The notes under the pieces were generated by a model. It saw only the letters and a program-made list of their open reading frames with translations, had not been told where the DNA came from and did not search any database. Shown here piece after piece: positions 15,573-20,274 of a DNA stretch of 29,348 nt. The stretch is from a virus. A program made the position numbers and the translations under genes. Within the stretch, counting starts at the first letter, position 1; each line of letters starts with the position of its first letter. Location: positions 1 to 29,348 of IMG/VR virus record IMGVR_UViG_3300046007_010531. One strand, given 5' to 3'.

Positions 15573-15586
15573 TAGGTAAAAGCCTA
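15573..15586. promoter_or_regulatory. TAGG-N6-CCTA palindrome (site 9)
   Basis: The spacer is TAAAAG. The TAG of one half-site, read on the minus strand, is the stop codon of the initiator gene. The site lies 95 bases upstream of the DnaB start. Confidence 0.65.
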
Positions 15587-16369
15587 TGCCGACTCCGCAG
15601 GTGTAATCTGGGTCCATCCTTGGTACGGGTCGGCTTTGGGTTTATAGCGCCCGTAGTTGCCCTCCAAAACCCTAGCCAGCGAGTCAGGCCGAATGAACCA
15701 GTCTATGTTTGCTCGCCACCCTCGGTCGTTGTCGCCGAGGCAGAAATCGATCTCGGAAACAGCTTGGCATCCCTCGGCAAAATGCTTTTGCCACCAAGGG
15801 TCTCTCAGGCGGGTGGTAATCATGTCCCGCCGCTTCTTCGTCAGTCTTGGCCGCTGACCCGTGTAGTGCCGCCAACAATCGACCACGTCGCAGGGCTTCC
15901 AACCGGGCTCTTCTGCGACTGCATCGCCGCTCGGTGGTGAATCCGAGGAAGCAGGCGGTTTTTCTTTATCTTCTTTTTCTATTGAGTCTGAGTCTGAGAC
16001 TGGGCTTTCGTTTTGCTTACGTTTTAGCTTTGTGTTTAGCTTTTGTTTAGCTTTGCCGTTAGCTTTTCCTCTTCCGCCCTTTTTTCCGTTTTCACTGCGA
16101 ATTCGCTGCTTTTTTCGCTCTTCCTCCAGCCGCTCGTTAATCCACTGGCCGGGCTCAACTTCCTTGAATTTTAGTTTCAAAACTCGTTCGACTAAAGCTG
16201 AATCAATAGCTGAATTGAAAGCTAAACAAAAGCTAAATGAAAGCTGACCGTGAAGCCAAGAAGCAGCCAGCAAACGGATGTAAATTCCGACCTCGGCCGT
16301 GCTCATCGTCAGCGTTCCACCCAGGAACGAGTCGGGGTAAAAGCTAAAAGCGGGCGATTTCCGCGCCAT
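15584..16369 (-). CDS. phage replication initiator (O-like, DUF1376/YdaU-type N-domain)
   Basis: The protein has 261 residues from ATG 16369, with GGAGG upstream. Residues 1-90 follow the DUF1376/YdaU pattern: SPAFSFYPDSFLGGT, then STAEVGIYIRLLAASWLHG. Residues 85-155 are low-complexity, rich in Lys, Ser and Pro. The C-domain (about 155-245) has WRHYTGQRPRLTKKRRD and GWRANIDWFIRPDSLARVLEG, the usual end of phage initiator or helicase-loader proteins. It should bind the origin and recruit DnaB. The codons for residues 40-58 and 100-117 contain short DNA iterons on helical spacing, so the gene seems to contain its own origin, as in lambda. Confidence 0.85.
   Translation of the reverse strand: MARKSPAFSFYPDSFLGGTLTMSTAEVGIYIRLLAASWLHGQLSFSFCLAFNSAIDSALVERVLKLKFKEVEPGQWINERLEEERKKQRIRSENGKKGGRGKANGKAKQKLNTKLKRKQNESPVSDSDSIEKEDKEKPPASSDSPPSGDAVAEEPGWKPCDVVDCWRHYTGQRPRLTKKRRDMITTRLRDPWWQKHFAEGCQAVSEIDFCLGDNDRGWRANIDWFIRPDSLARVLEGNYGRYKPKADPYQGWTQITPAESA
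16024..16066 (+). repeat. iteron array A, four copies of TTAGCTTT
   Basis: Exact copies begin at 16024, 16036, 16047 and 16059, with steps of 12, 11 and 12 bases, about one helical turn. Confidence 0.8.
16194..16247 (-). repeat. iteron array B, five inverted copies (AAAGCTRA on plus)
   Basis: Copies begin at 16194, 16206 (ATAGCTGA, one mismatch), 16218, 16229 and 16240, with steps of 12, 12, 11 and 11 bases. A further AAAGCTAA is at 16340. The orientation is opposite to array A. Confidence 0.8.
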
Positions 16370-16430: not shown

Positions 16431-16520
16431 GAAACGCGGCTAAGCCGCGAAAAAAGATTGAATTAATGCTGGCTGTCACACCGGCGGGAAAAGTCTAGTG
16501 CGACAGGCCTTTCAAATCAA

Positions 16521-16534
16521 TAGCTTTGTTCCTA
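16521..16534. promoter_or_regulatory. degenerate operator, TAGC-N6-CCTA
   Basis: One mismatch from the palindrome; the spacer is TTTGTT. It lies 37 bases before the XRE gene at 16571, and CCTA runs into TATGAT, a good rightward -10 hexamer. Read leftward, TTGCGA and TATTGA flank it at 16-base spacing, so it may serve divergent promoters. Confidence 0.5.
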
Positions 16535-16570: not shown

Positions 16571-16867
16571 ATGGATGTAATTGTTCGTGTCGCGAAAAAT
16601 GTCAGGCTCAAGCGGATTTTGGCCGGCATGACGCAGCAAGAATTGGCCACAAGGATGAGCGACCAAACTGGCAGCCGCTGGGCGCAGCCACAGGTCAGCG
16701 ACATTGAGCACGGAAAAGCCGCTGTAACGCTGATGACACTGGAAAAACTGGCGGCCGCTCTAGAAGTTACCGTTGCTGAATTGATTCAAATTCCGCGGGC
16801 CCGCGACATTGCCAAGCTCGGGAAAAAAGCTGAGCTTATCAGCCGTTCCAGCGAGGCTCGCGGGTAA
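16571..16867 (+). CDS. XRE-family transcription regulator
   Basis: The protein has 98 residues. Residues about 8-68 form an HTH_3 domain: NVRLKRILAGMTQQELATRM, then QVSDIEHGKAAVTLMTLEKLAAAL. No peptidase or dimerisation domain follows, only a 30-residue basic tail, so it is not a LexA-like self-cleaving repressor. It is convergent with, and overlaps by 29 bases, the second XRE gene on the opposite strand. A degenerate copy of the TAGG palindrome lies in its promoter region. It is one of two candidates for the protein that binds these palindromes; which of the two is repressor or antirepressor cannot be told. Confidence 0.85.
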   Translation: MDVIVRVAKNVRLKRILAGMTQQELATRMSDQTGSRWAQPQVSDIEHGKAAVTLMTLEKLAAALEVTVAELIQIPRARDIAKLGKKAELISRSSEARG

Positions 16868-17117
16868 ACAGGACCGCCACAGGCTGCTGAAGCAGTTTGG
16901 CGATTTTTTCGAGCGTTTTTAGCTGAATGTCGCACCTGGCTGTCTCAATAGCCGTGTAAGTTGGCTGAGCCATCTTCATCAATTCAGCCATTTTGGTGGC
17001 AGTAAACCCCATTTCGAGGCGAATTTCGCGAATGTTTTGCACTACCCTTTTGTGCAAATCGCTGATTTTAGACGGTTTTGTGGTCCTTCGGTCCAATCGC
17101 CCGTTTCTGACGGTCAT
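16839..17117 (-). CDS. XRE-family transcription regulator (candidate operator-binding repressor)
   Basis: The protein has 92 residues. A basic N-arm (about 1-22) is followed by an HTH_3 fold: VVQNIREIRLEMGFTATKMAELM, then QPTYTAIETARCDIQLKTLEKIAKLL. A perfect TAGG-N6-CCTA palindrome (17117-17130) covers the ATG and the bases just upstream, the expected place for autorepression. Homodimers of this fold bind 4-6-4 palindromes in lambdoid phages (434 type). No cleavable C-domain is present. It is convergent with the 16571 gene, giving a 29-base antisense overlap that could make the two mutually exclusive (inference). Confidence 0.85.
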   Translation of the reverse strand: MTVRNGRLDRRTTKPSKISDLHKRVVQNIREIRLEMGFTATKMAELMKMAQPTYTAIETARCDIQLKTLEKIAKLLQQPVAVLFTREPRWNG

Positions 17118-17262: not shown

Positions 17263-17362
17263 ACAGATGGACCGAAAGGAAAGGGTTTTAACCCGCCAGC
17301 AGACGGAGAAGATTGCTGTCCCGCCTCACGGATGCCTACCCTGTTTTAGTGGAGGCTTACCA

Positions 17363-18232
17363 ATGCTTTTGTCTCAGTTTTTGGTTTCCTACTCGCTCCA
17401 GCGCGAACTAACGGAATCGTCCGTCGAACAGTACCGTATCGCCATCAATTGTTTTGATTTGTGGATTGGCCACAAAGCATCAATTGAAGAACTGACCGAT
17501 GACGCGGTGAATCAATTTTTGATTGACTATGGCCGGAACCGAAGACCGCACACCGTCACGTCCAAGCGAAGAAGTCTGCTGGTGCTCTGGCGAGCAATCG
17601 CCGACCAGCATGAAATCACCGCGCCGAAGAGAATCCGAAAAATCAAAACGTCACCAACGCCGCGTGACGTTTGGTCGGCCGAAGACGTGAAGCAAATTGT
17701 TTTGCGTCTTCGGTACAAAACCGGACGACTGCCAAAGATTGGCGTCAGGAGCGGAGATTATTTTGCTGGCCTTGTGCTTGCAGCCTGGGAGACCGGGTTG
17801 AGGCTTGCTGACCTCGTCAACCTGACTCGCGACCACTTGAGCAAGCCCGGCTGGTTTGGCATCACGATGCAGAAGACCCAGCTGCCGCACTGGTGCAAGC
17901 TGCACGACCAAACGCGGCATCTGATTCTTGGCACGTTTGACGACGCGCCGCCTCGGGCGCTGTGCTGGCCAGACTGGGACGCTCGCACTGCAAAAGCTGG
18001 CTACAAGCACCTGCGAGCCGAAATTATGCAAGCTGCCGAGGCTGTTGGCCTATCGGCCAGCGACGGTCCCTTCAAAAAACTGAGGCGGTCGTCAGTCACG
18101 GCAGTTGAAATGATTGCCGCCGGGCAGGGTCAATTTCACGCCGGCCACACCAGCGCGGTGACAACGCAGAGATGGTATCTATCGGACGAGACTCGGCTGA
18201 ACCGGCCAATTCCTCAAGAAATTCCAGTTTAA
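17363..18232 (+). CDS. int: tyrosine recombinase / integrase
   Basis: The protein has 289 residues from ATG 17363, which has GGAGG eight bases upstream. The frame is open back to 17267, but that part has no domain signal. The N-terminal SAM-like core-binding domain is at about 1-85. The catalytic domain carries R147 (ETGLRLADL), K171 (QKTQL), R241 in KKLRRS, H262 (HAGHTS) and the nucleophile Y272 (QRWYL). The first His of the usual H-x-x-R box is Lys. It would insert and excise the phage at the tRNA-derived site next to it. The leader between the element and the ATG has no other gene. Confidence 0.88.
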   Translation: MLLSQFLVSYSLQRELTESSVEQYRIAINCFDLWIGHKASIEELTDDAVNQFLIDYGRNRRPHTVTSKRRSLLVLWRAIADQHEITAPKRIRKIKTSPTPRDVWSAEDVKQIVLRLRYKTGRLPKIGVRSGDYFAGLVLAAWETGLRLADLVNLTRDHLSKPGWFGITMQKTQLPHWCKLHDQTRHLILGTFDDAPPRALCWPDWDARTAKAGYKHLRAEIMQAAEAVGLSASDGPFKKLRRSSVTAVEMIAAGQGQFHAGHTSAVTTQRWYLSDETRLNRPIPQEIPV

Positions 18233-18532: not shown

Positions 18533-19405
18533 ATGACAGTGACAGTGCGAGATAGAACAAAGCGAATCGGCGCTTCTGATGCCGGCGCAATCTTGGGCCT
18601 GAGCCCCTACAAAAAACCCTACGAGGTCTGGCTGGAGAAAACCAACCAAGTCGAGCCGTGGGAAGGAAACGAGGCGACCCGGGCCGGGAAAAAGCTGGAG
18701 TCGTTGCTTTTGGAGGAGGCAGAGTTAGACCTGGGCGACCTTGCATGGGACGTGTTTTGCCCGTCTCCCTACGGCGAGCCGATTGCGGCAACCCTCGACG
18801 CACAAGTGATTTCAACCGGCGACGTGGTGGAGTGCAAGACCTCGGGCATGACCGGAGGCCCGGTGGTTGGCTACTGGGGCGAAGAGGAGACGGACCACAT
18901 CCCAGAAGAGTATTTGGTTCAGACCCAGATTCAAATGTACTGCTCAGGGGCCGAGCTTGCGCACGTTTATGCCTATCTCGGCAAAGCAATCAAGTCGGTT
19001 TACCAAGTGCGGTATGACCGCCAGCTGGCCGAGTCAATCGCTGAGACGCTTGCCAAGTGGTGGGAGAAGCATATCGTCGGCGGAATTGCGCCTGACTCAA
19101 CGGGCGCTCTGCCGGACCTGCTTAAGCGAGTGCGAAGGCAACCAGAAAAGATTATCGAGGTTGGCCAGGAATCCACGTTTCAGTTGCGGTCGGTCATTGA
19201 CGATATGGCTCAGGCCAAAGACCGTCGCAAGGAGATTGAGGAGCAAATCGAGCTGATGCAGGGCCAGTTGATTCTTGCTCTCGGTGACGCCGAGGCCGCC
19301 AAGCTTGCTGACGGAACAAGCATTACCTACATGCTGACCAATCGTAAAGGCTACACCGTCGAGCCTAAGTCTTACCGGACCCTGCGAATCAAGGAGCGCA
19401 AGTAA
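18533..19405 (+). CDS. YqaJ-family phage recombination exonuclease
   Basis: The protein has 290 residues and AGGAG before its ATG. The lambda-exonuclease-like YqaJ domain carries IGASDAGAILGLSPYKKPYEVW (about 12-33), AATLDA (Asp, about 85), VVECKT (E-x-K catalytic pair, about 100) and EEYLVQTQIQMYCSGAE (about 125-141). The C-terminal third is a coiled, Glu/Lys-rich region. It resects double-stranded ends to give 3' single strands for the annealase encoded next to it. The stop overlaps the RecT start (TAATG), so the two are coupled as in other exo/annealase pairs. Confidence 0.92.
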   Translation: MTVTVRDRTKRIGASDAGAILGLSPYKKPYEVWLEKTNQVEPWEGNEATRAGKKLESLLLEEAELDLGDLAWDVFCPSPYGEPIAATLDAQVISTGDVVECKTSGMTGGPVVGYWGEEETDHIPEEYLVQTQIQMYCSGAELAHVYAYLGKAIKSVYQVRYDRQLAESIAETLAKWWEKHIVGGIAPDSTGALPDLLKRVRRQPEKIIEVGQESTFQLRSVIDDMAQAKDRRKEIEEQIELMQGQLILALGDAEAAKLADGTSITYMLTNRKGYTVEPKSYRTLRIKERK

Positions 19406-20274
19406 TGAATGCAGTAATTGAAAAACCAAAGCTTCTCAGTGTCATGGCCGCAAGGCTCGGTGTAGAGCCCGAGAATATGCTGCGCATCCTAAAAAACACC
19501 TGCATTAAGCCGACTCGTGGTGGCAAGGAGGCCACCAACGAGGAGGTGCAGGCGTTCTTGATTGTGGCGAATCGCTACGATTTGAACCCGATGACTCGCG
19601 AAATTTTCGCGTTCGAGTCTAACGGGGCAATCATCCCGATTGTTTCAATTGACGGCTGGGCAACGCTCGTTAATCGCAACGAGCATTTTGACGGCTGCGA
19701 CTTTGAGACGGCGCACGGGGCCGACGGGAACCTTCTAAGTATCACTTGCCGTATCTACGACAAGCGGCGGACTCGTCCGATTGCTGTCACTGAGTATCTG
19801 GCCGAGTGCCAGCGACCCAGCCAGCCGTGGCGAACCATGCCGCACCGGATGCTGAGGCACAAGGCTTTCATGCAGGCCGCTCGCCTTGCGTTTGGACTGT
19901 CGGGCATTTACGACGAGGAGGAGGGGCTGCAAATCGCCAAAAACGAAATGCAGGTCGAGTCGCCAAGGATAACCACGGCGGGCACTGCGGGCCTGCGGGA
20001 TAGGCTGCTACCTACTCAGGCACGAGAAGAGCCGGCCCAGGAAAAGCAAGACGAAGCCGTTGAACCGATTGTGGAACACGAACCCGAGGCGGCCAACCAA
20101 AGCAGTTTGTGGGGCGACGAGGCTCCCGACTTTAGCCAACTGTTTTCAACCGCGCAGACCGCAAAAGCGGCGGGCGTCTTGGTCAACCAGCTTGCTGCGG
20201 CCCATCCAGACCACGGCGAGGCGATTGAAAAGGCTTACGAAAGCCGCCTGAAAGATTTCAGGAAGGCAAAGTAG
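19405..20274 (+). CDS. recT: RecT-family single-strand annealing protein
   Basis: The protein has 289 residues. The RecT/Bet core spans about 8-180: VEAFLIVANRYDLNPMTREI-like helix (EVQAFLIVANRYDLNPMTRE), VSIDGWATLVNRNEHFDG, and the PHRMLRHKAFMQAARLAFG helix. The C-terminal 100 residues are acidic and variable, with a short end helix. It coats 3' single strands from the YqaJ exonuclease and anneals them. A TAGG-N6-CCTA palindrome is embedded at the end of the core (codons RLLPT). A clear terminator follows. Confidence 0.92.
   Translation: MNAVIEKPKLLSVMAARLGVEPENMLRILKNTCIKPTRGGKEATNEEVQAFLIVANRYDLNPMTREIFAFESNGAIIPIVSIDGWATLVNRNEHFDGCDFETAHGADGNLLSITCRIYDKRRTRPIAVTEYLAECQRPSQPWRTMPHRMLRHKAFMQAARLAFGLSGIYDEEEGLQIAKNEMQVESPRITTAGTAGLRDRLLPTQAREEPAQEKQDEAVEPIVEHEPEAANQSSLWGDEAPDFSQLFSTAQTAKAAGVLVNQLAAAHPDHGEAIEKAYESRLKDFRKAK
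20001..20014. promoter_or_regulatory. TAGG-N6-CCTA palindrome (site 13), inside recT
   Basis: The spacer is CTGCTA. It is in mid-gene, about 260 bases before the recT stop and not near a start, so it would act as a stoperator rather than a promoter operator. Confidence 0.6.

Follow-up and report, generated by a model that had tools for sequence, protein, structure and literature searches.

A probable replication origin with two opposed iteron arrays inside the DUF1376 initiator gene of a phage

In lambda and the Stx lambdoid phages, the replication origin is located within gene O (PMC7466680), where 4 to 6 initiator-binding iterons and an AT-rich tract occupy the middle of the initiator gene and from where the initiator hands over to the helicase-loading step (PMC7466680). 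Similarly, oriL of the Bacillus phage SPP1 is found within gene 38 (PMC6316719), direct repeats and an AT-rich unwinding region being placed inside the gene of the origin-binding protein, and this phage encodes its own DnaB-type helicase (PMC6316719). Repeated sites bound by an initiator are likewise found in the RepA origin of PLE, a phage-related satellite of Vibrio cholerae (PMC7145576). The locus described here has repeats inside an initiator gene and a phage-encoded DnaB-type helicase as well, with a mildly AT-rich candidate unwinding tract; binding of the repeats by the initiator and a handover to helicase loading would be of the same kind. It lies in a linear virus fragment of 29,348 bp from IMG/VR, hereafter the window, by which the whole stretch of DNA analysed is meant. 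A gene position p of the initiator gene corresponds to window coordinate 16370 - p, and the elements of the locus are as follows.

15584 to 16369, minus strand: gene of a DUF1376 initiator / helicase loader of 261 residues (Pfam, PHROGs, AlphaFold2), with both arrays within its codons
14117 to 15478, minus strand: gene of a DnaB-like replicative helicase (Pfam DnaB_C, E 5.9e-70), next downstream of the initiator
16571 to 16867 and 16839 to 17117: genes of HTH regulators flanking the initiator
16194 to 16247, minus strand: array 1, with the coding strand reading TYAGCTTT, in winged-helix codons (about residues 41 to 60), inverted with respect to array 2
16024 to 16066, minus strand: array 2, with the coding strand reading AAAGCTAA, where the codons specify the disordered linker
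15957 to 16004, minus strand: candidate unwinding tract, made of a 6-nt tandem (ACTCAG)n at 15983-16004 and then an A-rich purine tract at 15957-15982

The N-terminal region of the 261-residue protein matches the Pfam domain DUF1376 (PF07120) over profile positions 4-84 of 86 with an E-value of 9.4e-6, the score of 26.4 bits being a weak match below the gathering score of 30.1, and this same region aligns with many other DUF1376-type relatives. PHROGs matches are to a primosomal protein, a DnaD-like helicase loader and an O-like replication initiator, the O-like match covering residues 91-240 only (E 2.8e-10) and the others being primosomal/DnaD-like. The AlphaFold2 model displays a winged helix at residues 24-77 (helices 24-40, 45-51 and 57-67, strands 69-72 and 75-77), followed by a long helix up to residue 97, a disordered linker of low confidence (98-157) and a helical C-terminal domain (159-235). 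Comparison of this model with known structures returned generic winged helices with Z up to 7.2, Foldseek against the PDB likewise yielding generic winged helices only and zero matches at E<=0.001, and querying the phage collection with the protein sequence gave no match. Where the preliminary description put forward an O-like initiator, the protein appears to be a DUF1376 member that combines a winged helix with a DnaD/primosomal-like C-terminal part, and is at most a possible homologue of lambda O.

The gene of the DnaB-like helicase stays beside the initiator gene in relatives, and this helicase is likely the client of the initiator. Genes of the window are directed mostly leftward below ~16.4 kb and rightward from there to ~24 kb. 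A RecE-like exonuclease and a RecT/Bet-like annealing protein are encoded as a pair at 18533-20274, and an integrase-like gene is located at 17267-18232, which suggests that the phage is temperate and brings its own recombination system.

The four copies of TTAGCTTT listed in the preliminary description, at 16024, 16036, 16047 and 16059, are confirmed, and the whole 29,348 bp contain no others; these are the copies of array 2, at gene positions 339, 327, 316 and 304, next to which a degenerate fifth copy, TTTTGCTT, is found at 16011-16018. AAAGCTRA is present seven times, at 16194, 16218, 16229, 16240 and 16340 and at the unrelated sites 8679 and 16826. Array 1 comprises the conserved copies at 16240, 16229 and 16218 (gene positions 123, 134 and 145), an imperfect one at 16206 (157) and one at 16194 (169). 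Four of the five inverted copies first listed are exact, while the site at 16206 reads ATAGCTGA, with one mismatch to AAAGCTRA. The additional copy noted at 16340 does exist in the window, as a lone AAAGCTAA at 16340-16347 (plus strand) near the gene start (gene position 23), but is missing from relatives, the copies at gene positions 157 and 169 being window-specific as well. Stepping by 11-12 bases was found as described, the successive steps being 12, 11, 12 in array 2 and (12, 12), 11, 11 in array 1, and both arrays do fall in codons of the initiator gene. No other place in the window has a chain of at least four 8-mers stepped by 10-12 bp, and 50 block shuffles produced none. Besides, an 11-nt direct repeat, AATCAATAGCT, links array 1 (16201-16211) to the intergenic region between the initiator gene and the divergent HTH gene (16515-16525); no matching copy was found upstream of the initiator gene in the related contigs L004 or L008.

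Repeats of this kind could be a by-product of a lysine-rich repetitive linker and of codon bias: array 2 is situated in a low-complexity linker, and most of the 119 matches obtained in an 8-mer pattern scan of viral contigs are in-frame coding repeats, so that the 8-mer pattern alone is non-diagnostic. However, the steps of the two arrays break the codon frame, and array 1 encodes a different peptide, in a folded domain. When synonymous codons were permuted within the gene in 20,000 runs, with protein and codon usage preserved, P was 1e-4 for array 1 and 6.5e-4 for array 2, while the two jointly came up in 0 of the 20,000. Conservation points in the same direction. Two contigs (L002 and L003) are identical to the window in the initiator gene, and five further ones (L004-L008) encode relatives with a protein identity of 55% (L004-L006), 61% (L008) and, for the truncated L007, 84% over 121 residues. 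The possible absence of the repeats from such close relatives was checked, and all five retain array 1 at gene positions 123/134/145. Array 2 is likewise retained by all five, at 304/316/327/339, and in most of them an extra copy follows at 351. A run of 43 nt (gene positions 111-153, array 1) is invariant across the window, L004, L006 and L008. Where amino acids are unchanged, the codons of the window are identical at 11/11 positions in array 1 and at 9-11 of 10-11 in array 2, amounting to a codon identity of 90-100% within the arrays against 0.50-0.56 elsewhere in the gene (Fisher P 5e-5 for L004, 6e-4 for L008). The shuffles and the near-complete synonymous conservation refute, at the sequence level, a protein-repeat or codon-bias origin of the arrays, to which we accord next to no probability. 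As judged from these comparisons, both arrays are under selection as DNA and not as protein, in agreement with what had been proposed.

Such arrays are not confined to this clade. In a family-wide test for off-codon-frame repeats at 10-14 bp steps, 55 non-redundant DUF1376 genes were set against 120 neighbouring control ORFs, and frame-breaking repeats of ~11 bp exceeded codon shuffles (P<0.05) in 64% of the former versus 4% of the latter, about one third of the DUF1376 genes having no significant array by the same test. The linker arrays typically start 27-41 nt past the start of the ENGKKGGRP codons, and their cores are lineage-specific, including AAAGCTAA, AAACCCAA, AAACCGAA, AAACCTAA, AAAGCCAA and CAAGCAAA. 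In addition, a protein-independent scan for AAAGCTRA triplets detected frame-breaking arrays in the linkers of the distant DUF1376 genes L022, L068 and L070. AT-rich, frame-independent AAAGCTAA/TTAGCTTT arrays were also encountered at positions 4943-5050 of L107 and 1652-1681 of L118, with no DUF1376 reading frame over either; they are possibly origins of other replicons with the same core.

These distributions bear on two other explanations. According to the first one, the arrays would be operators of the flanking HTH regulators, which would silence the initiator gene from within, and in the window clade both HTH genes do remain neighbours of the initiator gene. Nevertheless, L022, L068 and L070 possess the linker array although nothing in the stretch examined matches these regulators, arrays with other cores are found throughout DUF1376 genes, and the intergenic promoter region is devoid of conserved copies in relatives, which leaves this explanation quite improbable. 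According to the second one, the two inverted arrays would base-pair within the mRNA, and the resulting long hairpin would control translation or stability. The predicted folding of the mRNA is indeed stronger than for codon shuffles, z ranging from -3.4 to -4.6, and 22-26 of the 32 array-1 bases are predicted to be paired to array 2. Such pairing is however expected from any two inverted arrays, the steps of the two differ (11, 11 versus 12, 11, 12), L022 and others have array 2 but lack array 1, and zero compensatory changes were seen in any pair, the array-2 spacers varying without change of the partner. A hairpin is in our opinion very improbable.

Recurrence of the inverted array was assessed in genes with a linker array: the iteron of each gene was reverse-complemented, and pairs of it spaced by 10-12 bp were looked for in the 210 nt that precede the linker, forward-orientation pairs serving as control. 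Before further recruiting, inverted pairs were found at P<0.05 in 5/33 genes and forward ones in 0/33 (Fisher 0.011 versus 0.9997). In an enlarged set the counts were 11/46 and 0/46 (3.6e-4 versus 0.999), a count biased by recruitment with lineages already showing pairs and to which the window clade contributes three of the eleven. All 11 pairs of the enlarged set lie at -144 to -128 nt, in winged-helix codons, and the lineages concerned include AGCT, CCC and CCT cores. Swapping iterons among genes reduced the match (P=1e-4 with 40 genes, 4.5e-4 with 32 genes under looser clustering), the forward control being non-significant, and many DUF1376 lineages and genes gave no array 1 in this search. 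Array 2 is the general linker-encoded array of DUF1376 genes, and array 1 a recurrent second module.

A tandem tract accompanies these arrays. The (ACTCAG)n tandem of the window, with its 6-nt unit, is retained across its clade. On the 3' side of the linker array, tandem tracts with a unit of 6 or 7 nt recur in the window, L164, L169, L177, L189 and others, those outside the window clade including 7-nt, frame-breaking CAGACTC repeats. Perfect runs with a lag of 6 were detected in 15/46 genes, 13 of these between +60 and +200 relative to the start of the linker, and runs with a lag of 7 in 9 genes, all in that interval. This short-period tract is a candidate unwinding or single-strand loading element. 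As for the pyrimidine/AT-rich neighbour of the preliminary description, the stretch flanking array 2 reaches 58-70% AT in 40-nt windows, a mild enrichment only, and is purine-rich on the coding strand. The cumulative GC skew has its minimum at about 15-16.5 kb, which fits an origin but is confounded, since divergent transcription coincides with it.

A three-part, self-encoded origin common to DUF1376 initiators, made of an inverted iteron pair or triplet in the winged-helix codons, a forward array in the codons of the disordered linker and a tandem tract of 6-7 nt units, with the iteron sequence of both arrays changing together as the protein lineages diverge, can tentatively be drawn from these observations, and we would place it slightly below an even chance. 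If it holds true, a two-array complex, looped or directional, would be a long-standing mode of a large class of phage replicons.

For the window itself, we consider it quite probable that the region is the theta-type replication origin of the phage, located inside its own DUF1376 initiator gene. This reading arises from the frame-breaking steps, the codon shuffles, the conservation at the DNA level and the recurrence in DUF1376 genes, and also from the adjacent helicase gene, the winged-helix N-terminus, the disordered linker, the GC-skew minimum and the parallel with lambda and SPP1. Plasmid iteron arrays can serve both as origins and in regulation. The arrays could consequently bind the initiator mainly to control its own expression or the copy number, with the true origin elsewhere, all the more so as the window is a linear fragment and sites may lie outside it. 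This is unlikely in our view, given that no second such array exists in the 29 kb of the window and that a site inside the initiator gene and beside dnaB fits the known phage origins (PMC7466680, PMC6316719).

With the region taken as an origin, the N-terminal winged helix would bind each iteron, and array 2 would nucleate an O-some-like complex opening the adjacent short-period, A-rich tract, after which the C-terminal domain of the initiator would deliver the adjacent DnaB helicase. Array 1 would act as a second binding platform of opposite orientation, which may hold a looped complex together, set the orientation of a second helicase or allow self-repression of the gene or origin. The layout of the arrays suits looping, directionality and autoregulation alike, so that each of them may apply, and the present data pick none; bidirectional initiation, suggested beside looping in the preliminary description, may apply as well. 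Since array 2 sits in codons of a disordered linker, the sequence is free there, whereas array 1 is written into the winged helix itself: one codon stretch encodes both a DNA-binding fold and the DNA that it likely binds. A widespread domain of unknown function would thereby gain a concrete, testable role and a binding site, and the origins of many uncultured phages could be predicted from the initiator gene alone. The matched inverted arrays would also offer a natural system in which to study how the direction of helicase loading depends on the geometry of the iterons.

Compared to the known systems, the layout is best explained, as far as sequence can tell, as an initiator-encoded origin of the lambda/SPP1 style with two opposed AAAGCTAA arrays stepped by one helical turn. 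Other DUF1376 initiators, such as that of Rac ydaU (annotated as primosomal protein I), possess the same N-terminal domain and lie beside replication genes, but carry arrays with other cores or none; ydaU, inspected as a possible known example, displays no clear array. A literature search, covering few subscription journals, found no published DUF1376 origin. The PLE iterons contain internal inverted repeats and are non-coding (PMC7145576), unlike those of the window, which lie within codons. In SPP1, a second origin, oriR, is situated ~13 kb away and loading is ensured by a separate protein, gp39 (PMC6316719), whereas in the window a single gene holds both arrays and a loader gene of its own was not found. 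In lambda and the Stx phages, there is one array, made of iterons that are each an inverted repeat (PMC7466680); those of the window are asymmetric 8-bp units at 11-12 bp steps in two opposed arrays, as the preliminary description had stressed against the single lambda array, and the initiator belongs to a different family with a phage dnaB adjacent to it. What is new with respect to lambda and SPP1 is therefore the other initiator family, the asymmetric 8-bp iteron, the two opposed arrays in one gene and the 6-7-nt tandem tract.
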